From Akkermansiaceae bacterium (lineage in GTDB: Bacteria; Verrucomicrobiota; Verrucomicrobiia; Verrucomicrobiales; Akkermansiaceae): a stretch of 64,000 bases of DNA. A model generated the notes under the pieces. The model saw only the letters and a program-made list of their open reading frames with translations, had not been told where the DNA came from and ran no database searches. Numbering within the stretch: the stretch's first letter is position 1; each line of letters starts with the position of its first letter. A program made the position numbers and the translations under genes. The stretch is taken from NCBI GenBank assembly GCA_017798145.1, contig CP059069.1, positions 434,001-498,000 on the forward strand, in the 5' to 3' direction. This document shows, one piece after another, positions 32,901 through 44,335 of the stretch.

Positions 32901-33125
32901 ATGATCAGTTCCGACCCGAAAATCATGATGGGGAAGCCCGTCATCACCGGCACCCGGATTACGGTGGAGTATATCCTTGAGGCTCTCGGCGCAGGAGAAT
33001 CCTTCGAACAGATCCTTTCCGGGCACCCTACCCTCACCCGTGAGGCCGTGCTCGCTGCCATCGACTTTGGGGCCAAAGCTCTCAAAGCCGATGTAATTTA
33101 TCCGGTTCCCGGACATGCGGCATGA
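32901..33125 (+). CDS. DUF433 antitoxin
   Basis: A 74-residue protein of the DUF433 family (MISSDPKIMMGKPVITGTRI ... VEYILEALGAGES...ILSGHPTLTREAVLAAIDFG), a helix-turn-helix DNA-binding domain that acts as the antitoxin of PIN-like toxins (VapBC45 type). The gene overlaps the toxin by four bases (ATGA at 33122-33125). It presumably binds and neutralises the toxin and represses its own operon. Confidence 0.92.
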   Translation: MISSDPKIMMGKPVITGTRITVEYILEALGAGESFEQILSGHPTLTREAVLAAIDFGAKALKADVIYPVPGHAA

Positions 33126-33490
33126 AACTCCTCGCGGATGAAAATCTGAACTGCATCATCACCCGGGATCTGCGGAATGCCGGACATGAAGTGATTTCAA
33201 TTTCCGAGGACTCTCCGGGCATTCCGGATGAACAAGTTCTCGAGCTAGCGAACCGTCACGGAGCCCTGCTTCTCACCGGTGACAAGGATTTCGGCGAAAT
33301 GGCCTACCGTCAGAAACTAGTCCATCACGGCGTCACTTTAATAAGGCTAGCCGGCCTGAGAACTGACGAAAAAAGCAGGATACTGCAAAAAGTCCTCGAA
33401 ATGCATGGCGATGAACTGAAAAAATCATTCACCGTCATCGCACCCAATCAAATCAGAATCAGAAAACCACAGCCTTCCACTGATCACTGA
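33122..33490 (+). CDS. PIN-like toxin, DUF5615 family
   Basis: A 122-residue protein with the DUF5615/Mut7-C-like PIN fold: the N-terminal acidic motif LLADENLN, GHEVISISEDSPGIPDEQVLELA, and LLTGDKDFGE with two further acidic residues. These acids bind the metal in the RNase active site. Translationally coupled to the DUF433 antitoxin. Such pairs usually cut RNA and act in stress response or element maintenance. Confidence 0.92.
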   Translation: MKLLADENLNCIITRDLRNAGHEVISISEDSPGIPDEQVLELANRHGALLLTGDKDFGEMAYRQKLVHHGVTLIRLAGLRTDEKSRILQKVLEMHGDELKKSFTVIAPNQIRIRKPQPSTDH

Positions 33491-33525: not shown

Positions 33526-36500
33526 ATGCCCACAAACCCAAAGAAACCCGGCAAAATCATGGCCGCGAACCGCGGCGAAATCGCGATCCGCATTTTCCGC
33601 GCCGCCACCGAACTCGGTCTCCGCACCGTCTCCATCTTCGCCGAAGAAGACCGCTTCTCCATCCACCGCTTCAAGGCCGACGAAGCCTACCAGCTCGATT
33701 CCTCGAAAGGGCCGGTCGGTGCGTATCTCGATTACGAAGGCATCGTGAAACTGGCGAAGGCAAAGGGCGTGACGATGATCCACCCGGGCTACGGCTTCCT
33801 CTCGGAAAACCCGAATTTCGCCCGCGCCTGCGCCCGGGAAGGAATCATCTTCATCGGCCCATCACCGGATCTTTTGGAAAACATGGGCGACAAAACGGCG
33901 GCCCGCGCGCTTGCCCACAGGTTCGACGTCCCCACGCTGCCCGGCACCGAGGAGCCGATCACCGATCCCGACGAGGCGCTCGAAATCGCCCACAAGATCG
34001 GTTTCCCGCTCATCATCAAGGCAGCCTTCGGCGGAGGCGGGCGCGGCATGCGCGTCGTGGATAAGCCATCGCAACTCCCCGGCCTTCTGGCGGAAGCCCG
34101 CGCCGAGGCGGAGAACGCGTTCGGCAATGCAGCCGTTTTCCTCGAGCGCTACATCAAGCGCGCCAAGCACATCGAGGTGCAGATCCTCGGTGACCAGCAC
34201 GGCAACGTCGTCCACCTCTACGAGCGCGATTGCTCGGTCCAGCGCCGCTACCAGAAAGTCGTCGAGGTCGCACCCGCCATGCACCTCGATCCGAAGATCC
34301 GGAAGGAACTCTGCGATGCGGCCGTGAAACTCGCTGCCGGCATCGGTTACAACAACGCCGGCACCGTCGAGTTTCTTTACGACATGGATCAGAACGATTG
34401 GTTCTTCATCGAGATGAACCCGCGCATCCAGGTCGAGCACACGGTCACGGAATGCGTCACCGGCATCGACCTCGTCCGCTCGCAGATCCTCGTCGCGCAG
34501 GGCAACGCACTTTTCGACGAAGAGATCGCCCTTCCATCCCAGGAAAACATCCCCTGCAACGGCTTTGCCATCCAATGCCGCATCACCACCGAGGATCCGG
34601 AGAAAAACTTCGCCCCGGACTACGGCCGAATTCTCAACTACCGCTCCGCCGCAGGCTTCGGCGTCCGCCTCGATGCCGCCTCGGGCGATGCCGGATCCGT
34701 CATCACGCCGTTCTACGATTCCATGCTCGTGAAGCTCACCACCATGGGCCGCGATTTCCCCATGGCCTGCCAGCGCATGGATCGCGCACTGCGCGAGTTC
34801 CGCATCCGGGGAGTGAAAACCAACATCCCTTTCCTCGAAAACATCATCGCGGATGAGACCTTCCGTTCCGGCCAGGCACACACCAAGCTGATCGATACGA
34901 AGACAGAGCTCTTCAAGTTCAGCAAACGCCGCGACCGCGCCACCCGCACCCTCGCCTACCTCTCGGAAATCACCGTCAACGGCAACCCCCACGCAAAAGG
35001 CTACAAGCCGTCGGCGATCATGATGCCAGCTGACGTGGGGGCGATCTTCGGTCGCCCATCCGCCTTCGAAGAATCCACCAAACCCCTCCTCCAGGAACTC
35101 GGCCCCGAGAAATTCTCCCAGTGGATCCTCGACCAAAAACGTCTCCTCATCACCGACACCACCATGCGCGACGCCCACCAGTCGCTCATCGCCACCCGCA
35201 TGCGCACCTACGACATGCTCAAGGTCGCCGGAGCCTACTCCGCCCGCACCCCGGAGATGTTCTCTTTGGAAATGTGGGGCGGCGCGACTTTTGACACCGC
35301 GATGCGTTTCCTCAACGAGGATCCATGGGAGCGCCTCCGCCGCCTCCGCGAAAAAGTGCCGAACATCCTTTTCCAGATGCTCTTCCGTGGCTCGAACGCG
35401 GTCGGTTATTCGAACTACCCGGACAACGTCGTCGCCGGTTTCATCCACCACGCCGCCGACAGCGGGATGGATATCTTCCGCATCTTCGACTCGCTCAACT
35501 ACCTGCCGAACATGCAGGTCGCGATGGAGACGGTCCGCGAGCACGGGAAATCCATTTGCGAAGCGGCGATCTGCTACTCCGGCGATATCCTCAATCCCGC
35601 CCGTTCGAAATACGACCTCAACTACTACATCGCGAAGGCGAAGGAAGTTGAGAAAATGGGCGCCCACATCCTCTGCATCAAGGACATGGCCGGCCTCTGC
35701 AAACCGCAGGCCGCCTACAACCTCGTCCACGCGCTGAAACAGGAAATCGGCATCCCCATCCATTTCCACACCCACGACACCTCCGGGCTGAACGCCGCAT
35801 CCGTCATCGCCGCCTCGCGCGCGGGCGTGGACATCGCGGATCTCGCCATCGCCTCCATGTCCGGCTCGACCTCGCAGCCGAACCTCAATTCCGTCTGCGC
35901 CGCCCTCGCCTCCTCCGAGCAGGATCCCGGCTTGGACTTCGATGCGCTCAACGACATCTCCGACTACTGGGAGCACGTCATGGGCTTCTACAAACCCTTC
36001 GACTCCGCCCCGCGCGCAGGCACCGCCGAGGTTTACGAGCACGAGATGCCCGGCGGCCAATACACCAACCTCCGCGAGCAAGCCAACGCCATGGGACTCG
36101 GCCACCGCTGGCGCGAGATCGCCCGCACCTATGCCGAGGTCAACCAGCTCTTCGGCGACATCATCAAGGTCACGCCTTCGTCGAAAGTCGTCGGCGACAT
36201 GTGCATGTTCCTCGTCACCCGCGGCATCAAGGCCAGCGACGTGACCAAGATCAAACCCGGCTCCATCGACTTCCCGGAATCCGTCATCGACATGCTCTCC
36301 GGCGGCCTTGGCCAACCGGACGGAGGCTGGCCTGCGGACGTGCAGAAGGTCGTCCTCGGCCCCAACCGCAAGATCACCACAAAGCGTCCCGGCGAACTCG
36401 CCGAGCCGGTGGATCTGCACGAAACGGCCAAGCAGTTTTTCCGTGATGGCGAGAGCTTCGATACGATCCGGGTGCAGGATGCCCTCTATTCGCACCTCAT

Positions 36501-37008
36501 GTATCCGGCGGTTTACAAGGAATTCCGCGATACCCGCAACCAATACGACGATCTCAGCAAGCTCCCCTCCCCCGCCTTCTTCTACGGCCTCCAGATCGGC
36601 GAGGAAATCGAGGTCGAGATCGACCCCGGGAAAATCCTCATCATCAAGCTCATCTCCATCGGCGAGCCGGACGACGAAGGCCGCCGCACCCTCTTCTACG
36701 AGCTCAACGGCATGCCCCGCGAATCCATCGTCGTGGACAAATCCCTCTCCACCACCGCCACCGCCGCCCGCAGGAAAGGCGACCCGGACAACCCGTCCCA
36801 CGTCTCCGCCCCCCTCCCCGGCATGGTCACGGAGATCGCCGTCTCCCCCGGCACCGAGGTCAAGGCCGGCGACAAGCTCGTCATCATCGAAGCCATGAAA
36901 ATGCTCACCACCGTCTCCGCCCCCGTGGACGGCACCATCAAGGACATCCTCGTCAAAAAGGGCGTCCAGGTGGACTCCGATGATCTGCTGGTGGCGATGG
37001 AGTCTTAG
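33526..37008 (+). CDS. pyc: Pyruvate carboxylase
   Basis: A 1160-residue single-chain pyruvate carboxylase converting pyruvate to oxaloacetate. Biotin carboxylase domain at about 1-455 (ATP-grasp: FGGGGRGMR, QRRYQKVVEVAP, EMNPRIQVEHTVTE), carboxyltransferase domain at about 530-830 (TDTTMRDAHQSL, the metal-site IKDMAGL and HFHTHDTSGLN), an allosteric/tetramerisation segment, and a C-terminal biotinyl domain with EAMKM (lysine 1125). The linker between the first two domains contains VGAIFGRP, encoded by 23 bases identical to one arm of an intergenic palindromic repeat at 37027-37049. Confidence 0.97.
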   Translation: MPTNPKKPGKIMAANRGEIAIRIFRAATELGLRTVSIFAEEDRFSIHRFKADEAYQLDSSKGPVGAYLDYEGIVKLAKAKGVTMIHPGYGFLSENPNFARACAREGIIFIGPSPDLLENMGDKTAARALAHRFDVPTLPGTEEPITDPDEALEIAHKIGFPLIIKAAFGGGGRGMRVVDKPSQLPGLLAEARAEAENAFGNAAVFLERYIKRAKHIEVQILGDQHGNVVHLYERDCSVQRRYQKVVEVAPAMHLDPKIRKELCDAAVKLAAGIGYNNAGTVEFLYDMDQNDWFFIEMNPRIQVEHTVTECVTGIDLVRSQILVAQGNALFDEEIALPSQENIPCNGFAIQCRITTEDPEKNFAPDYGRILNYRSAAGFGVRLDAASGDAGSVITPFYDSMLVKLTTMGRDFPMACQRMDRALREFRIRGVKTNIPFLENIIADETFRSGQAHTKLIDTKTELFKFSKRRDRATRTLAYLSEITVNGNPHAKGYKPSAIMMPADVGAIFGRPSAFEESTKPLLQELGPEKFSQWILDQKRLLITDTTMRDAHQSLIATRMRTYDMLKVAGAYSARTPEMFSLEMWGGATFDTAMRFLNEDPWERLRRLREKVPNILFQMLFRGSNAVGYSNYPDNVVAGFIHHAADSGMDIFRIFDSLNYLPNMQVAMETVREHGKSICEAAICYSGDILNPARSKYDLNYYIAKAKEVEKMGAHILCIKDMAGLCKPQAAYNLVHALKQEIGIPIHFHTHDTSGLNAASVIAASRAGVDIADLAIASMSGSTSQPNLNSVCAALASSEQDPGLDFDALNDISDYWEHVMGFYKPFDSAPRAGTAEVYEHEMPGGQYTNLREQANAMGLGHRWREIARTYAEVNQLFGDIIKVTPSSKVVGDMCMFLVTRGIKASDVTKIKPGSIDFPESVIDMLSGGLGQPDGGWPADVQKVVLGPNRKITTKRPGELAEPVDLHETAKQFFRDGESFDTIRVQDALYSHLMYPAVYKEFRDTRNQYDDLSKLPSPAFFYGLQIGEEIEVEIDPGKILIIKLISIGEPDDEGRRTLFYELNGMPRESIVVDKSLSTTATAARRKGDPDNPSHVSAPLPGMVTEIAVSPGTEVKAGDKLVIIEAMKMLTTVSAPVDGTIKDILVKKGVQVDSDDLLVAMES
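35035..35057 (+). repeat. Repeat arm inside pyc
   Basis: 23 bases identical to 37027-37049 downstream of the gene, with the palindromic core GGCGATCTTCGGTCGCC. In frame within the linker between the biotin carboxylase and carboxyltransferase domains. Confidence 0.75.
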
Positions 37009-37026
37009 CCAGCGGCGTCCCGGGGC

Positions 37027-37098
37027 GTGGGGGCGATCTTCGGTCGCCCTCCCCCCGAGACTCCACAAACGACAACGGCGACCAAAGATCGCCGCCAC
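37027..37098. repeat. REP-like palindromic repeat pair
   Basis: Two 22-base arms in inverted orientation (37027-37048 and 37077-37098) with two mismatches; each arm is itself nearly palindromic (GGCGATC-TTC-GGTCGCC). One arm recurs inside pyc. Lies between pyc and the chimeric biotinyl gene. Confidence 0.8.
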
Positions 37099-37156
37099 TC
37101 CTTGCCCCTGGTTTTTCGGCTGGATTCGGGTTCACCGTTTGGCTATCTTGCAACCG

Positions 37157-37576
37157 TTGAATGAAAGACCGCCCCTACCTCAGCCGGATCGCGATCGCCC
37201 GCTCCACGAAGTCATCGAGGAGTTCGGAGAGCGCTTACGCCCAGGTGGACCGTATGGCGAAATCGACGAATGGTCCGTTTACGACGAAAGTTTCCGAAGG
37301 CTCCGGGCCTGGGCGGAAGAAAACGGATGCTACCAACCGCATCTCAGTCCTTTGAGGGAAGGCGGCAGGGAACACAATCTCGCCCTCCCCGGCATCCTCA
37401 CGGAAATCGCCGTCTCCCCCGGCACCGAAGTCAAGGACGGCGACAAGCTCGTCGTCATCGAGGCCATGAAAATGCTCACCACCGTCTCCGCCCCCGTGGA
37501 CGGGATCGTGAAGGAAATCGTCGTCAAAAAAGGCATCCAAATCGACTCCGATGACCTGCTCGTGACCCTGGAGTAG
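37157..37576 (+). CDS. Chimeric small protein with a duplicated biotinyl domain
   Basis: A 139-residue frame. Residues 1 to about 75 (LHEVIEEFGERLRP ... SFRRLRAWAEENG ... LREGGREHNLAL) resemble, from memory, the N-terminal part of a family of larger Verrucomicrobial/Planctomycete proteins of unknown function. From LPGIL onward the last 60 residues are almost identical, also at DNA level, to the biotinyl domain of the upstream pyc, with EAMKM intact (lysine 105). The joint is abrupt. The start is uncertain: TTG 37157 is the nearest plausible codon and no ATG fits the frame. It could be an expressed biotin acceptor or a pseudogene made by a pyc 3' duplication. Confidence 0.5.
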   Translation: MNERPPLPQPDRDRPLHEVIEEFGERLRPGGPYGEIDEWSVYDESFRRLRAWAEENGCYQPHLSPLREGGREHNLALPGILTEIAVSPGTEVKDGDKLVVIEAMKMLTTVSAPVDGIVKEIVVKKGIQIDSDDLLVTLE

Positions 37577-37642
37577 GCGCGGAGACGCACCTACTCCTTA
37601 TTCAAAAGGCCTAGGAAACCGCCGTTTCCCCAAGCACCGAGA

Positions 37643-38611
37643 TCAATGCCCAACGATTTCGGTAATCACAAGGTTTTCAGAAGGAGTAGAATAATCTTCT
37701 ATATTGTATCTTACAGGCTTTGCATAGCCCATCTGAATCTTTCTGTTGGATAAGCAAGCTAATGATGTTCCAATTACTGATGGTTTTGAGTTCATTGGTA
37801 TCACGATCGTATTACAATCAACTCTACTTTTCGCAACTTCTAGAACTGCCAATTTTGTTGATTGAATTTCACGTGCTGAAAATTTAAAAGTCTCGACGAT
37901 ACCGTGGGAATAATAGCTTATGACTTTTTCAACGAATTCTCTCTGCTTCGTGTAAAAATCTTGGGTGAAACTTTCTTCTTCCGGCACTATCCCGAGCGAC
38001 AAGCAGTTAGGCTCGTAATTAGCAATTATCTCTGCGGATCTTTCGAACTCGTATCCTGGCAATAAAATAAGATGATTGCTTCTGGATGGGATAATATATC
38101 CGGAATATCCAATAACTGATCGAACTTTGCTCACCCCCCTGGAAAGCCAGTGTTTTTCATCTCTCCCATATCCACTAGCTGGATTATATAAGTATGTTAT
38201 TGGCGTATTTTCACCCAAATAAGCGAATATAACCCTTAGTAAAATAGAAAGAGACTCTCGCGTAAATGCGGTAATATCGATGGCAACAGAGCGTTGAGCA
38301 TGAGACTCCAGATTACGGAATTCCTGTACGAAAGCATCAGTAGTCTTTATCGGGTCGTTACTGTCTGTGGCGATAGGGAGGCAAGAAGATCCGCTTTCTT
38401 CATAGCGAGCGAGCACACTATTGAGATTTTCTAAATTGTAATCATTATTAACATTACAAGCTAATAATCCCAATTTAATTTTTTTTAGGTCGAGGTTATT
38501 TATTACGCTTAACGATCTTCCCTCAAAACTTGCGGAAGAAATAAATATATCAAGACCACCAGGGAAATATTGGCCGATCTCAACCAAGGGGCACGTGATA
38601 GATTTTCGCAT
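37643..38611 (-). CDS. Conserved conflict-associated protein of unknown fold (operon gene 4)
   Basis: A 322-residue AT-rich gene, last of a four-gene operon and starting one base after the ATPase stop. Recognisable segments, in order: LDIFISSASFEGRSLSVI (an S-x-x-E-R-type start), AIDITAFTRESLSILLRVIF (a D-I-[ST]-x-x-x-R-E motif), ITYLYNPASGYG, and HLILLPGYEFERSAEII (a L-x-G-[FY]-E-x-x-R motif). I have seen this motif order in uncharacterised proteins next to conflict-system ATPases; the pattern suggests an alpha/beta Rossmann-like domain. Function unknown; an effector or nucleotide-sensing role is a guess. Confidence 0.72.
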   Translation of the reverse strand: MRKSITCPLVEIGQYFPGGLDIFISSASFEGRSLSVINNLDLKKIKLGLLACNVNNDYNLENLNSVLARYEESGSSCLPIATDSNDPIKTTDAFVQEFRNLESHAQRSVAIDITAFTRESLSILLRVIFAYLGENTPITYLYNPASGYGRDEKHWLSRGVSKVRSVIGYSGYIIPSRSNHLILLPGYEFERSAEIIANYEPNCLSLGIVPEEESFTQDFYTKQREFVEKVISYYSHGIVETFKFSAREIQSTKLAVLEVAKSRVDCNTIVIPMNSKPSVIGTSLACLSNRKIQMGYAKPVRYNIEDYSTPSENLVITEIVGH

Positions 38612-38612
38612 A

Positions 38613-40424
38613 TTAAAATAATTCCATTTGATCAGAATCGAAAGTACGTTCGAAACCGAGGCTTTCTAATGAACGCAAATAGAACTTTGGATTCAATAGG
38701 GCATTTCGCATGCTATTGTTGGTGACAAATAGGTACCCAGCAAAACTAGTTGGATCCAAATTAAAACACGGTGCGAGCCTTCGGTTCAATATGTAAAGTT
38801 TAGTTCTTCCATTACCCTCCTTGTTCCCAATGCTGGAAACATGGAAATATCCCTCTTCGATTCCCAATCGTAATACACCTAGGACTTCACGATCTGGCTT
38901 ATCGGAGAAAGCGATAGAGAAAACACGGCGCTCTGAGCGATCCGAATTTAGGAGAAGTGAGAAAGTCCCTCCAAGTGATAGTAAAAGATTTTCTAGTTTC
39001 TCAAACTGTGTTAACTCTCCTACTTGGACAATAGTGTCTTCTTCCTCTACTTTTTTACGGTCTTCTAGATCACTGTGTAAAAACTTGTTCGCAAACTCTC
39101 TTATTTTTTCATTCTGTATTGCAGGCTCGATATACTTGATCTCTGCTTTCACCGCCTTAGATTTTGCTTCGCTGTACATTTGCGAAGCCGGTTCGAGAAA
39201 ACATCTTACAATGCCAGATGAAATATTTACTAGCTGATCAAAGCCCGAATATGAGTATGTGTGAGTCGATTTTCGTGGCCCACCTAATTCCTTGATGAAA
39301 TCGGGACGTGCGTATCTTGTAACGTCATCTCGTTTCCTATGACCGCGGCCTTCTCCAGAATCCCAAGTCTCAGCAATTCGCGCTTTGATCTTGTCGATAG
39401 CTTCCACTTGCTGAGGATCCTCCGGAAAAAATGATTGGGCGCTTTGATCTATTCCCGCTTTCCTAAGGCGTTTATCAATAATGGCAGCGATTCGATCAGA
39501 ATAAGTCTTATTCTTCGTGGTATATACTGTGGATATTTCTATTTCTGAAAAATCATGTGGTGCATCAATGCTTTGTCCAGAATGCGTAAGATAGGTCTTG
39601 TAGCGGAGCTGTGTTGATACTTTTATGCTCACATCTGAGTGCGTCCGTGTACCGATCCAAGAATTCAATATTTTGGTCTGAGCAAAGTTCAGATTATCTG
39701 CATCGTCTAATAGTAAAAATACTGGACTATTCGGGAAACATTTTAAGTAGGATTTTGTTTTTTTGAAGAAAGGCAAAAGAAAATCATGGTATCCGCAAAG
39801 TGGTCCATCATAATCTTCAATTGGAAGGCGATCCAATGCCAGATCCTGCAAGAAATTATTGATTTGCTCGACTAACTTCAGAGAAATATCGTGCATCACT
39901 GAGAAAAAATCCTTCAGTGTTTTTGGTGTTTCTAGTCCGTCAGGTTTTTTCCATCTGCAAATCTCTAGTCGTTTTATAAAGCATTCATTAAATGCCAAAG
40001 AAATATCATTTTCTGTTATATTTTTGTCTTCCAGAGGAATTATCCCGGATGTTAACGTCTCCAGGACTTTCTCCAGTATGTAAATAGTTAAAACGTGTTC
40101 ATTTATAATGTAATTTGCAGCATGTCCCTCAAGCCTCTTTAACTCTGTGAGATTAGCCTGCATATTCTTAATGGGCACCCACGCCGCAAAATACGGTAAT
40201 TCACTTACGCCAATTTCCCTAGACAGGGATTGGCAATCAGGTTGCATATATCGGAACATCATGCTCTTCCCGCAGCCACGCGGCCCGTGAATGAAGGTGT
40301 GACCTGTACTGGTCAGTTTTTCAAAGTCAGTAAATACATCCACAAACAAATCGTGTGCATCTAGCGCAGAGATATCTTCCGGACTTTGAACTACGAAAGG
40401 ATTAGCTTTAAGTAAATCAGACAT
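38613..40424 (-). CDS. ORC/CDC6-like AAA ATPase (operon gene 3)
   Basis: A 603-residue P-loop ATPase. It opens with NPFVVQSPEDISALDAHDLF and carries Walker A HGPRGCGKSMMFRYM (about residue 45) and Walker B PVFLLLDDADNL (about residue 235). An STQLRYKTYL segment may be sensor 1. The C-terminal third has a possible winged helix (FSIAFSDKPDREVLGVLRLGIEEGYFHVS). It fits the ORC-CDC6-family ATPases found in bacterial conflict loci. Its start overlaps the HD gene by 8 bases. A motor or switch that couples sensing to an effector is the likely role. Confidence 0.8.
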   Translation of the reverse strand: MSDLLKANPFVVQSPEDISALDAHDLFVDVFTDFEKLTSTGHTFIHGPRGCGKSMMFRYMQPDCQSLSREIGVSELPYFAAWVPIKNMQANLTELKRLEGHAANYIINEHVLTIYILEKVLETLTSGIIPLEDKNITENDISLAFNECFIKRLEICRWKKPDGLETPKTLKDFFSVMHDISLKLVEQINNFLQDLALDRLPIEDYDGPLCGYHDFLLPFFKKTKSYLKCFPNSPVFLLLDDADNLNFAQTKILNSWIGTRTHSDVSIKVSTQLRYKTYLTHSGQSIDAPHDFSEIEISTVYTTKNKTYSDRIAAIIDKRLRKAGIDQSAQSFFPEDPQQVEAIDKIKARIAETWDSGEGRGHRKRDDVTRYARPDFIKELGGPRKSTHTYSYSGFDQLVNISSGIVRCFLEPASQMYSEAKSKAVKAEIKYIEPAIQNEKIREFANKFLHSDLEDRKKVEEEDTIVQVGELTQFEKLENLLLSLGGTFSLLLNSDRSERRVFSIAFSDKPDREVLGVLRLGIEEGYFHVSSIGNKEGNGRTKLYILNRRLAPCFNLDPTSFAGYLFVTNNSMRNALLNPKFYLRSLESLGFERTFDSDQMELF

Positions 40425-41499
40425 GGGCTTGAAATTCCTCGCACTGCTTTTTCAAAGACGCCCCATCGAGATCGTCAAATTCCTCGCATAGTTCCTTGAT
40501 TGTTTTTTCAATATGCATAGGATATCCCTTTTCTTTAATTACATAAGAGTGTATTCTAAATGCTTCTGTGGAATTACAAAAAGCGGATAATGTTACATCA
40601 ATCTTTTGGATATTAACAGAGTAACCACGCATGAATTTCATACAGTAAATCATTTCGCAGAATGCTTTTTGTGTACGTTTATGGATTTCATCTAGCAAAT
40701 ATTTTTTGAGAATATTACCGCCTTCATCTTTTCGATAGCCGAATTCAGTAAGCATATCGTCTGGATACAAGCAAAATTCCATTTTGATACGTTGATTTTG
40801 GCGGTCGACTTTGACGGTTTCCAAACATTTTGCGAATCGATGGTAGATTTGACTTTCTTCTGGGATTTGACCATTTTGTAAGCCGAATTCATCCGCTCTA
40901 CTATGCTCATCGGCTAGTTCGTCAGCCAATCTCAAGATAGCAGCAAGGAGTTGAGGGCGTACTTGCTTACCCATCAGATCTTGAGTTCCCTCACTGATTA
41001 TTGTTCCTATTGTGTCCTTGTCTCCATCTACAGTTCCGCCATGTGAGCTTGCGATCTTCGCAATTTGTCGCTGCTCAGAGGCCTTAAGTTTATTGAAATC
41101 GGCTATTTTTCCAACTATGTCCAAGATACGGCTCTCGTGTCCTTCCCTGCCGTAAATATTTCCTACGTCATGACAGTGAATGCTTATTAGAAGTAGAAAA
41201 CCTTCGTATGGAGTTAAGTTGGTCGAAAACCCCGAATTCGATGAGGTATTAATCAGTGCTGATGCTCTCCGCATCACCATTTCAATATGTTTTGGTCCAT
41301 GATCGGTCAGAAAACCACCTTTATTCCTAATTGCTGCATAAGCAGCGACATTGTTGTGAACTTTAGTATTTAGTTCATGTTCAATGTTCAGGAAAATGGC
41401 ATCATATTGTACTGACCCATGGTTAGGAAAATCTTCTGGATTTTTACGGAATGAGTTGATGACCCAAGAGGCAAAATGATTGGAATGGGGAGCTTTCAT
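40417..41499 (-). CDS. HD-domain protein (operon gene 2)
   Basis: A 360-residue metal-dependent phosphohydrolase-like protein. The HD superfamily ligands can be traced: LTDHGPKHIEMVMRRA (first His), ISIHCHDVGNIYGREGHESRI (His-Asp pair plus another His), ASSHGG, and ADELADEHSRADEFG (final Asp). The C-terminal half has a possible alpha/beta ligand domain (IQKIDVTLSAFCNSTEAFRI) and a charged helix. It resembles the HD-CE type domain of prokaryotic conflict systems. It may cleave a nucleotide or nucleotide second messenger. Five bases separate it from the methyltransferase gene. Confidence 0.8.
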   Translation of the reverse strand: MKAPHSNHFASWVINSFRKNPEDFPNHGSVQYDAIFLNIEHELNTKVHNNVAAYAAIRNKGGFLTDHGPKHIEMVMRRASALINTSSNSGFSTNLTPYEGFLLLISIHCHDVGNIYGREGHESRILDIVGKIADFNKLKASEQRQIAKIASSHGGTVDGDKDTIGTIISEGTQDLMGKQVRPQLLAAILRLADELADEHSRADEFGLQNGQIPEESQIYHRFAKCLETVKVDRQNQRIKMEFCLYPDDMLTEFGYRKDEGGNILKKYLLDEIHKRTQKAFCEMIYCMKFMRGYSVNIQKIDVTLSAFCNSTEAFRIHSYVIKEKGYPMHIEKTIKELCEEFDDLDGASLKKQCEEFQAHV

Positions 41500-41504
41500 A
41501 TGCC

Positions 41505-42566
41505 TCAGCGGTGATTGATTAATTGTTTGAAAACGACTTTAGCTAGTAGTGGAGGCACTGCATTACTCACTTGTTGTTGTTGTGTTCCAATCGAACCGTG
41601 GAAAACAAAGCGGTCGGGGAATGATTGGATGCGTGCAGCTTCCCGTACGGAAAGTCCCCTGTCCTGGTCGGGGTGTACTAGCATGTTCTTCCGATAGTTA
41701 GCGATCACTACAGAGGGAGAGTCCCAAACGAGTCGCCTGTAAATTCCGCTGTGCCGGCTACGGTTGTCTTTTAGATTCGTGTAATTTTTCATTAAACGCG
41801 ACGGAATATCTGTCCAATTCCCTCCTGGTGGTATGTGAGCGTAGCGTTTTATCACTGTCGAATTGTTCGCGGTAACCAGATGTCCGGTTGTTTTTCTGAG
41901 TGATTCGCGCATTTCAATGGCGTAATCAGAAGGTCTTCTGCGTCCGTAAGGTAGTTCATTGATATTCGCGCCTACTGTGAGATTTGGCAGGTCGCTGATC
42001 GCTTCTCTGACCGTGACGTGTAATTTTACCGTCGGAATTGGAGGCGGAGGAACAGGTTTTTTTTTTCTACCTATAATAAATACACGTGAACGCATTTGCG
42101 GAACCCCGTAATCGGCTGCACAGAGAGTCCAAACAGTAGTGTTGTATTCGAGTTCTTCCAATCCATCGATAATCAACCTTTCAAACTGACCTTCTGCGGT
42201 TCCACGCAGCCCTTTTACATTTTCTAAAAGTACCCATTCAGGACTTGCCACACGCGCGCAACGAAGAACCTCTTGAAACAACCAGTTTCCGGGGTTTTGA
42301 AAATTGCGTGTACGCTGATTTGCTGTTGAAAAACCCTGGCATGGGGGACCACCGAAGAGAATAGTAGTTGTTCTGCGCTTCGGTTCAGGGGTGAAGCTGC
42401 GAACATCTCCCTCTAGAAGTTTGGTGACTGGGTGGTTACGACGAAATGTTTCGGCAGCTGAGGGATTGTTCTCGACGGCTTGCGACACTCTAATCCCCGC
42501 AGCTTCGGCTCCAAGCGAAAGCCCACCGGCACCCGCAAAGAGATCGATTCCTAGGATGTCTTTCAT
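41505..42566 (-). CDS. DNA (cytosine-5)-methyltransferase (operon gene 1)
   Basis: A 353-residue Dcm-type enzyme with all main motifs: I DLFAGAGGLSLG, IV GGPPCQGFS (catalytic Cys), VI ENVKGL, VIII MRSRVF, then a variable target-recognition region (about 200-280), IX SVREAARIQSFPD, and X VSNAVPPLLA. It is the promoter-proximal gene of the AT-rich operon. No restriction endonuclease gene is beside it, so in this setting it may mark self DNA for the three downstream genes or be a solitary methylase. Target sequence not predictable. Confidence 0.95.
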   Translation of the reverse strand: MKDILGIDLFAGAGGLSLGAEAAGIRVSQAVENNPSAAETFRRNHPVTKLLEGDVRSFTPEPKRRTTTILFGGPPCQGFSTANQRTRNFQNPGNWLFQEVLRCARVASPEWVLLENVKGLRGTAEGQFERLIIDGLEELEYNTTVWTLCAADYGVPQMRSRVFIIGRKKKPVPPPPIPTVKLHVTVREAISDLPNLTVGANINELPYGRRRPSDYAIEMRESLRKTTGHLVTANNSTVIKRYAHIPPGGNWTDIPSRLMKNYTNLKDNRSRHSGIYRRLVWDSPSVVIANYRKNMLVHPDQDRGLSVREAARIQSFPDRFVFHGSIGTQQQQVSNAVPPLLAKVVFKQLINHR

Positions 42567-42887
42567 TTGTAAAGTTTTAAGAAGGGTGTATTTACTGCCG
42601 TCGCGACCTAGGTAGGCTGGATTTCTGCCTTTTTACTGTCAACGATTGATTCGAGTCCTCCAATATTTTCAAATTTTGCAGCAGTTATCGGGTTTTATAG
42701 TCGATTTCTGAATGGGCTACCCGCTATTTCACGTTTTTGGAGCGACGTGAAGCCCGTGGGAAGGTCTTCATCTGCTGGTGTGGACACTCCGATCAAGCCA
42801 AGGCGCGGAACGCGCTTACTCCACGTAGGAAGAAAATAGTCAAGGGGGATTCGGGAATGGATTTGGAGGAGGATGGGATGGAGGCGG
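42567..42887. other. Gene-free AT-rich to GC-rich transition upstream of the methyltransferase
   Basis: About 320 bases without a supported gene. The first 150 are AT-rich and belong compositionally to the island; on the minus strand they include TTGACA (revcomp of 42639-42644), a possible -35 element, but no convincing -10. The remainder returns to host-like composition. Confidence 0.5.
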
Positions 42888-42984
42888 GGAGAGCCGTCTT
42901 TTCAGGCGGCTGGATTTGGATACGGCTTCATCGTGCCGGGCGAATGGGCTGGGGTTCCGCTGCCGCCTGAAAGGACGGCTCTCC
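42888..42984. repeat. Palindromic repeat element, copy 3 (paired arms)
   Basis: 97 bases with 23-base terminal inverted arms differing at one position (42888-42910 and 42962-42984; arm begins GGAGAGCCGTC and ends CAGGCGGC). Same family as the elements that flank the aldehyde dehydrogenase gene at 22.2 and 23.9 kb. Confidence 0.8.
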
Positions 42985-43127: not shown

Positions 43128-43229
43128 CGGCGGTCTCTACGGCATTCATGGGCGGCATTCACGGGCGTGCTTTTACAACCGCAGTTCTACCCGCCTGCGG
43201 TAAATCGGGAAGGATAAAAGGCGGGGGTG
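43128..43229. repeat. About 100-bp direct repeat, copy A
   Basis: Nearly identical to 44647-44749. On the minus strand it holds the start region of the nucleotidyltransferase-like gene (MNAVETA); in this copy the following codons diverge at once, so only the leader and start were copied. Confidence 0.75.
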
Positions 43230-43239
43230 TGGATCCAAA

Positions 43240-43415
43240 CCGGTAGGGCTGATCCGGCCCGGTCGGCCCTGATCAATCACGGAGGAGCCGTGATCACGGA
43301 ACGGGGGTGAGACCGCAGTGAGGCGGGCATTTTGTTTCGGGATCTCACTTCCGCCAGGGTGAGCGGGACGTTGGATTTCGGAAATGGGCCGACCGGGCCG
43401 GATCAGCCCTACCGG
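43240..43415. mobile_element. MITE-like element, complete copy
   Basis: 176 bases bounded by 30-base perfect terminal inverted repeats (43240-43269 and 43386-43415; arm begins CCGGTAGGGCTGATCC). No coding capacity. Inside there is a secondary inverted pair around GTGATCACGG and a segment GATCTCACTTCCGCC. A second copy lies 280 bases downstream. Confidence 0.85.
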
Positions 43416-43595
43416 AAAGATGGGCGCGAGCTGGCCGATGGAAAAGTGTGTCAAAGTGGCGCGATTTGGAGCGAAGTAAAAATGAAAGGAAGTAAGAAAT
43501 GCGGAGAATTGATTCGCAAGTCGTTGGAAATCAATGGAATCCATTTTGAGCGGGTGATGAAAACAGGCAGAAGTGCAAATGAGCGAAAATAAGAA

Positions 43596-43693
43596 TCACC
43601 TGCCCCAGGAGGGAATGTAGCGGGTGTATTTGTTCCCTTGGGATTCGTCGGCGGGAACAATGAACCCCGCTTTTTTGGCTGCGGCAATGATGC
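43596..43693 (-). pseudogene. C-terminal gene remnant abutting a MITE-like element
   Basis: The minus strand reads RIIAAAKKAGFIVPADESQG then NKYTRYIPSWGR and a stop: a protein-like C terminus of about 32 residues whose upstream part is cut off where the truncated MITE-like copy begins. The parent protein is not recognised. Confidence 0.5.
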
Positions 43694-43853
43694 GGCTCGG
43701 TCGGCCCTGATCCATCACGGAGGAGCTGTAATCACGGAACGGGAGTGAAATCGCAGTGAGGCGGGCTTTTTGTTTCGGGATCTCACTCCCGCCAGGGTGA
43801 GCGGGACGTTGGATTTTAGAAATGGGCCGACCGGGCCGGATCAGCCCTACCGG
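43694..43853. mobile_element. MITE-like element, left-truncated copy
   Basis: Same sequence as 43240-43415 with scattered substitutions. The right terminal repeat (43824-43853) is complete; the left repeat lacks its outer half and joins directly to the gene remnant. Confidence 0.8.
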
Positions 43854-44050
43854 ATACCCCTCGTCAGCTCCGCGGGCGCTTCAGCGAGGAAGAGGCCTTG
43901 CTCGGCGGCGATGGCTCGAAAGATCCCGAGTTCCTCGGCGTGATAGGTTGTGCCGCCATGAAGGCGCGAACTTGCCTCGCAGCTTTTTCCGAGCTGCGCA
44001 ACAAGTGGCGGGAGCGGGACTCCCGGAGTTTCTGGACATCGATCACGCAT

Positions 44051-44335
44051 TCAGGTTAGCCTCCGCACGGGAGATGGGAAAGGGAATTCTGGGTGGGCGG
44101 GGTGTGAGGGTGAGTATCGCGGTTCCGTGCGGGAAGAGGTGCGGTATGGCGGGCTATCCTCCCGGAGCACGGAAGAATCCGGGCCTTCCGTATCAGCGGG
44201 CACGGCAGACCGCAGGGCCACCGCCCGCTCCCGCATCGCATCAAGCATCGCGAGCTTCTCCATGATGCCGCGTGAAGCCAGCCCGCGCCGGTGGGCGCGC
44301 TTGCTCTCGATGATTCTGTGGAGGTCGAAGGTCAT
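44051..44335 (-). CDS. Small partner protein of a nucleotidyltransferase module
   Basis: A 94-residue frame whose first 43 residues (MTFDLHRIIESKRAHRRGLA ... IMEKLAMLDAMRERAVALRS) match, from memory, a family of short helical proteins encoded beside MNT-like nucleotidyltransferases. The rest is Pro/Ser-rich and probably an extension after loss of the native stop. Its ATG overlaps the stop of the broken nucleotidyltransferase (CCATGA), the coupling expected for a two-gene toxin-antitoxin-like unit. Function uncertain. Confidence 0.5.
   Translation of the reverse strand: MTFDLHRIIESKRAHRRGLASRGIMEKLAMLDAMRERAVALRSAVPADTEGPDSSVLREDSPPYRTSSRTEPRYSPSHPAHPEFPFPSPVRRLT

Follow-up and report, generated by a model that had tools for sequence, protein, structure and literature searches.

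Introduction

Among the described systems, the closest to the locus discussed here are the T6SS effector arrays of Vibrio cholerae, for which sequential displacement has been proposed (PMC5361080). In the passages of that paper drawn on here, one side of the incoming DNA is anchored by homology and the other is joined illegitimately, the 3' part of the old effector gene is kept downstream, and repeated events stack such remnants one behind another. According to the same passages, the frequency of such recombination, in the species tested, is orders of magnitude below that of ordinary recombination.

This report discusses a gene fusion found in a window of 64,000 nucleotides (contig CP059069.1, positions 434,001 to 498,000) from an Akkermansiaceae bacterium. 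The fusion lies between the pyruvate carboxylase gene pyc (whole gene, 33526-37008) and a defence island, and it combines the start of a Kinase-PolyVal gene with a second copy of the pyc 3' end. We put at about an even chance the explanation that displacement recombination at the pyc 3' end gave rise to the fusion as a by-product. The ancestor would have carried a pyc end of the type found in genome G004 (G numbers denote the genomes compared) and directly behind it a defence island, and the incoming DNA would have brought a pyc end of the G092/G032 type, its spacer and a kinase gene that had a promoter of its own. On one side, homologous recombination would have taken place inside pyc near 36.6 kb, and on the other side an illegitimate joint would have linked kinase codon 75 to a point in the old pyc that lies 63 codons short of the stop. 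By such an event pyc would have gained a new, working end, the old pyc end and the island behind it would have been shifted 571 bp downstream, and the kinase start and the old pyc end would have come into one frame by accident. The sequence itself shows the parts with their nearest relatives, the mosaic character of pyc, the truncation of the kinase and the island borders shared with G004. The order of these events, the illegitimate joint and the lack of function of the product are what we infer from it, and the published precedent (PMC5361080), as far as the passages cited go, argues for displacement by analogy. No genome with an intermediate or unrearranged parent state was found among those compared.

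The Chimeric Reading Frame

The chimeric frame has 139 codons, counted from a TTG at 37157 and ending with the stop at 37576. The open reading frame around it extends from the first ATG at 36980 to the same stop, and the TTG at 37157 is presumably the start, as the kinase relatives conserve a start at this place. The plus-strand segment 37157..37381 holds the opening 75 codons of a Kinase-PolyVal gene and breaks off ahead of the kinase core (63-70% protein identity to relatives; full proteins and Pfam), and the segment 37383..37576, on the same strand, is a second pyc 3' end of the G004 type, 63 codons and a stop, fused in frame (DNA identity, tree and site counts). The kinase similarity stops at 37374-37380 and the pyc similarity begins at 37383.

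The first-pass annotation had described the last 60 codons as nearly identical to the end of pyc. The copy itself is real, because 36812-37003 and 37383-37574 align without gaps over 192 nt with 88% DNA identity at a spacing of 571, and the tail is 81% identical in protein to the end of the adjacent pyc over 63 residues. However, the wording was too strong, since the chimera and its own pyc differ at 23 of 186 tail nucleotides and at 12 of 63 residues. The Ala-to-Asp and Val-to-Ile changes listed in the same annotation are present, the biotin motif AMKM has its lysine intact as was stated there, and the reported join to a 75-residue domain foreign to pyc was borne out, with the start of a Kinase-PolyVal protein as its identity. 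The chimera matches the Pfam Biotin_lipoyl profile (PF00364) at 8.5e-16 with 58 bits against a curated cut-off of 22.1; the match spans positions 16-73 of the 73 profile positions in the chimera and 3-72 in pyc, so that the chimera either lacks the first part of the biotinyl domain or has other sequence in its place. An assembly artefact, which had already been discounted, is unlikely because the window is part of a single-contig genome of 4.39 Mb and the copies differ throughout. The recommended search for the same fusion in related genomes found it in none of 72 others, that is, in 1 of 73 in all, many of the assemblies being incomplete. In addition, a second pyc-tail match beside pyc was seen in none of these 72 genomes among the candidates scored (at most 11 for each genome), many of the assemblies being fragmented.

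Origin of the N-Terminal Part

The first 75 residues alone gave no match in Pfam, and the Kinase-PolyVal profile PF18762 matched neither the whole chimera nor these residues. As a query against 59 genomes, on the other hand, the 75 residues gave matches in 17 at E <= 0.1. Besides the own genome, the strong ones were in G019, G030, G014, G004 and G008 (63-70% identity, E < 1e-26), the rest being more distant or due to chance, and a search of the genus added kinase copies in G077, G070, G085 and G078. An intact protein of 229-233 residues with the same opening residues is encoded in six of these nine genomes and in the record RYN_631. Two full relatives were tested against the Kinase-PolyVal cut-off of 27 bits, and that of G008 passes it with 32.2 whereas that of G019 stays below it with 24.4. 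On these matches the N-terminal part of the chimera is the start of a Kinase-PolyVal protein of about 230 residues, which elsewhere in the genus is intact; the search with the N-terminal part alone, suggested by the first-pass annotation, has thus found this part elsewhere as a kinase start. The kinase part of the chimera stops before the columns of the ATP-binding lysine and the catalytic aspartates, residues which were placed by eye from general kinase motifs. The fusion protein cannot act as a kinase.

All the kinase searches used the 5' part only as the query, and they also brought out damaged copies. The kinase start of G078 is cut after residue 71 (L079 5001-5285), near the cut in the window, and an open frame on the opposite strand adjoins it; the copy of G085 shows a frame shift along with an internal deletion, that of G070 has an early stop, and short pieces lie on contig 12 of G008 and in G067. 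The five kinase neighbourhoods listed are mutually unlike by eye, and none of them is at pyc. One scan of viral contigs for relatives of the N-terminal part gave 20 pattern matches, none of which was confirmed. An AlphaFold2 model of the full kinase was unconfident (pLDDT 61), and Foldseek with this model gave no match at E <= 0.001; RIO kinases were among the weak matches, which were given no weight. GTTRRRY is the motif of integron cassettes, and the idea that the kinase gene, with GTTRRRY at its start, is such a cassette was dropped by eye because the base preceding the TTG varies among the kinase copies.

A promoter-like module of the kinase gene lies on the plus strand at 37120..37149, with CTGGA at 37120-37124 and TATCTT at 37144-37149, 7 nt before the TTG. 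TANNNT ending at -13 to -6 from the TTG was found in 10 of 11 kinase copies including the chimera and in 0 of 5000 shuffles, and the full pattern (T-rich bases, TGG[AC], and TANNNT 22-24 nt on) was found in 8 of the 11 and at 0.012% of background positions, this pattern having been composed after inspection of all 11 copies, the chimera among them. The left part of the pattern is met by chance at 1.9% of TTG positions. There was no consistent ribosome-binding-like element among the 11 copies, and a sigma-70 scan did not list the module. The same module was observed upstream of the Kinase-PolyVal genes in L004-L008, L036, L049 and L077-L079. Its position a few bases before a conserved TTG suggests that the Kinase-PolyVal genes of this genus have leaderless transcripts. 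The -35-like element (37120-37124) stands on the left border of the block missing from G092 (described below) and is present in G092 too, so that the kinase start seems to belong with the spacer behind pyc; this would fit displacement.

The Adjacent pyc Gene

The pyc gene is a mosaic. Its body (33526..36624, plus strand) is mostly nearest to G004, which it follows at 154 of the 226 informative sites that set G004 against G092, and among same-residue codons in 33526-36500 the identical ones are 728/913 for G004 and 664/902 for G092. Its present 3' end with the biotinyl domain (36625..37008, plus strand) is of the G092/G032 type and agrees with G004 at 17 of 51 such sites. The break between the two at 36624-36667 has an LR of 20.8, which none of 1000 shuffles attains. 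Of the eight mosaic comparisons, three (G004 v G092, G007 v G092 and G007 v G032) break at 36618-36667, each with 0/1000 shuffles, and this argues for displacement. However, the other five break elsewhere in pyc, four at 34963-35031 and one at 36286-36300 (0 to 35 of 1000 shuffles), and this counts against it.

Furthermore, two linkers of pyc (at about 35.0 and 36.4-36.6 kb) are only 59-72% identical to all six relatives compared, and are unlike both G004 and G092. From the further breaks and the linker unlike G004 and G092 it follows that there are several joints in pyc and that it is uncertain which type is native; because the two linkers are strongly variable among the relatives and have their own breaks, pyc is apparently a frequent site of recombination in this group. 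The sequence comparisons support a joint near 36.6 kb as one among several, and the current pyc end is taken as the incoming replacement.

The spacer behind pyc (37009..37130) contains a 25-nt inverted repeat with arms at 37024-37048 and 37077-37101 and is common to G092, with 117 of 121 aligned bases identical, which again would be expected from displacement. On the other side of pyc, a DUF5615/PIN-like gene lies at 33122-33490 between mnmE and pyc; by eye, an open frame with a similar start was seen at this place in G004 and G007, and none of at least 80 codons in G032.

Ancestry of the Biotinyl Tail

The tail is closer to the pyc genes of G004 and G069 than to the neighbouring pyc. Its DNA identity is 92.8% of 194 nt to pyc of G004 and 88.0% of 192 nt to its own pyc, and the match to G004 continues into the bases after the stop (37577..37592), with 91.4% over 37383-37592 and with 15 of 19 bases matching when counted from the stop codon. 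The tail ends in Glu-stop, as in G004, G069 and some others, and not in Glu-Ser-stop. At 22 of 186 tail sites the pyc genes of G004 and of the own genome differ, and the chimera agrees with G004 at 15 and with its own pyc at 6 (p 0.08). At the sites separating G004 from G092 the chimera goes 17:5 with G004 (p 0.017), against 9:12 for the own pyc end (p 0.66 alone), and the two ratios differ with a Fisher p of 0.03. This contrast and the nearness to G004 also past the stop speak for displacement; on the other side stand the 9:12 taken alone and the contrasts with G069, G060 and G007, those with G069 substituted for G004 being not significant and the sites separating G060 or G007 from the own pyc being shared evenly (12:11 and 14:16, respectively).

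Trees group the tail with G004, G069, G060 and G007 (bootstrap 87-93). Forcing the chimera and its own pyc together costs 16.8 log units with 24 rows and 13.4 with 14 rows; the AU test gives p 0.10 and 0.054, respectively, so that this grouping is not formally rejected, which also weighs against displacement. Two proteins tried as arbiters of species kinship were undecisive (in one, 88% for G032 and 75% for G004; in DnaJ, 93% for each).

These data also bear on the explanation that the tail arose by local tandem duplication of the present pyc end followed by divergence, the route by which the first-pass annotation had thought that a new biotin acceptor might have arisen. The two copies are adjacent, in the same orientation and 88% identical, the AU test is not significant, and the tail is about equally far from its own pyc (23 differences), G060 (22) and G007 (25). 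Nevertheless, the greater closeness to G004, with a match continuing beyond the stop, and the Glu-stop ending in the style of G004 and G069 are at odds with it, and the G004-like tail makes us regard local duplication as improbable.

The Defence Island and Its Borders

The island behind the fusion (37643..42566, minus strand) encodes, by PADLOC and Pfam, a CARF protein, an ORC-CDC6-like ATPase, an HD-CE protein and a C5-cytosine methyltransferase, which is a defence-type combination. Of 73 genomes in the genus, 2 have the ATPase, the second copy being 34% identical. PMC12839542, met in a search for combinations of ORC-CDC6, CARF and HD, does not describe the island of this window in the portions consulted. 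In G004, a type II methyltransferase and a restriction enzyme stand directly behind pyc, and the right border of the window's island (42709..42890) is common to the right border of these type II restriction-modification genes (aligned locally, it scores 67 against L064 and includes a run of 45 identical nt). Different defence genes behind pyc with a common right border would be in line with displacement.

The flank to the right of the island is again G092-like. A 9-bp direct repeat, GGATTCGGG, is present at 37122..37130 and, as the same 9-mer, at 42847..42855; G092 joins window position 37130 straight to 42847 and has GGATTCGGG once. Two matches of GGATTCGGG in 64 kb are not exceptional by chance (expected 1.7). 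From this arrangement comes the main rival to displacement, namely that the block 37131-42846, with the kinase start, the pyc tail and the island, took shape in a donor and entered a G092-like site in one piece, either with a 9-bp target duplication or by a short sequence shared at the ends. The junction in G092 with its single GGATTCGGG, the G092-like character of both the spacer and the right flank and the rarity of the cargo in the genus agree with such an insertion, and whole-block insertion explains at least as simply as displacement why G092 joins both flanks exactly at the repeat. On the contrary, the -35-like element of the kinase lies at and to the left of the edge, in sequence which G092 also has, and the mosaic of the neighbouring pyc would require a separate event. 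We hold whole-block insertion to be rather unlikely, although a serious competitor.

The idea that G092 is a simple empty site from before the insertion was downgraded because the promoter-like module spans the left edge of the G092 gap, and it was kept as a rival; since G092 has the -35-like element, a deletion between the repeats in G092 would be at least as likely as an insertion in the lineage of the window. Repeat-driven insertion was considered separately and rejected: with up to 3 mismatches allowed, GGATTCGGGAATGGATTTGGAGG from the border has a single occurrence in the own genome and is thus no dispersed repeat there.

Between the fusion and the island, a stretch at about 37614..37668 resembles the start of the biotinyl segment and overlaps the 3' end of the CARF gene. 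It scores 25.5 against the tail of the own pyc (0/2000 shuffles, 0/500 dinucleotide shuffles) and 23.0 against the chimera tail (1/2000 shuffles in one run and 0/2000 in another). Because it is also a terminator-like hairpin for the island genes, it is counted only as a probable further, decayed remnant of a pyc tail; a pyc-tail piece (about 37609-37668) may have been taken over as a terminator. Beyond the right border, the non-coding stretches 43219-43416 and 43688-44136 match overlapping parts of G092 (L063 5209-5406 and 5240-5688), so that a piece is repeated in the window.

Selection and Function of the Fusion

The first-pass annotation had proposed a comparison of substitution rates. In a two-ratio codon test, omega is raised on the tail branch (0.30 against 0.055 for the rest, p 0.023; own pyc, 0.033), and it is not distinguishable from 1 (p 0.17). 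For the branch of the kinase part, omega is 0.285 and different from 1 (p 0.009), so that this part is not neutral as a whole, which counts against displacement; this long branch includes time before the fusion, and much of the constraint may predate it. These tests rest on 62 codons and 74 codons and have low power. Four residues of the chimera tail are in states found in none of 23 pyc rows, and residue 80 of the chimera is Ile, where all 23 pyc rows compared have Met; this residue and the relaxed tail omega fit an old end drifting after its displacement. The AlphaFold2 model of the chimera was unconfident (pLDDT 52) and is given no weight either way.

Because the kinase promoter is apparently intact, the cell may produce the 139-residue protein, and biotinylation of its lysine would be possible in principle. 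Consequently, the fusion might be seen as a new functional biotin acceptor, which takes its promoter and start from the kinase gene and its biotinyl domain from pyc. The open frame, the intact AMKM, the promoter-like module in place and a point estimate of the tail omega below 1 are what such an acceptor would show. However, the constraint is relaxed and not different from neutral, the Pfam match is without the beginning of the biotinyl domain, the Met of all 23 pyc rows has been changed, and the fusion is present in only 1 of 73 genomes; a functional acceptor is accordingly quite improbable. A bolder version, in which a live new gene under the kinase promoter makes a biotinylated 139-residue protein that competes for biotin or acts as a free carrier, and in which pyc ends are a recurrent landing site for defence cargo with old ends piling up, is a long shot. 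Literature searches found no such biotin-carrier chimera, as far as titles and the openings of abstracts tell, and pyc as an insertion hotspot was not found in them.

A selected function for the fusion is unlikely, and most likely it is a drifting relic without one. The other possibility named by the first-pass annotation, debris beside the island, comes close to this best reading, in which the debris would originate as an old pyc end displaced by recombination.

Comparison with Known Systems

Displacement at pyc, if correct, would show that the turnover of a defence island beside a housekeeping gene can create an in-frame chimeric gene along the way, by a route in which recombination renews the end of the host gene, keeps the old end and puts it under the promoter of another gene. 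Leftover gene ends beside islands would then document earlier exchanges of cargo, and where a domain seems to have been duplicated locally, a foreign or displaced origin would have to be tested for.

The domains of the fusion are familiar ones in an altered state. The N-terminal 75 residues correspond to the start of Kinase-PolyVal proteins (PF18762; Iyer et al. 2017, PMC5512222, in the part of that work considered), but the fusion is without the kinase core, and the intact copies found here are single short genes. The tail has the sequence and the lysine motif of the biotinyl domain of pyruvate carboxylase (PF00364), but the beginning of the domain is replaced, the constraint is relaxed and the domain is detached from the carboxylase. 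As for the recombination, the proposed event would have one homologous and one illegitimate end, like homology-facilitated illegitimate recombination as outlined in PMC3240628, with the difference that here it is read from the sequence and the parent is unseen. As in the T6SS displacement of V. cholerae, so far as the cited passages of PMC5361080 describe it, the homology would be one-sided and the old 3' end shifted back and kept. Unlike that case, however, a carboxylase with a housekeeping role would serve here as the anchor and a defence island would be the cargo that was kept; the old end forms one frame with a truncated gene, and in place of the stacks of V. cholerae there are one clear and one probable remnant.
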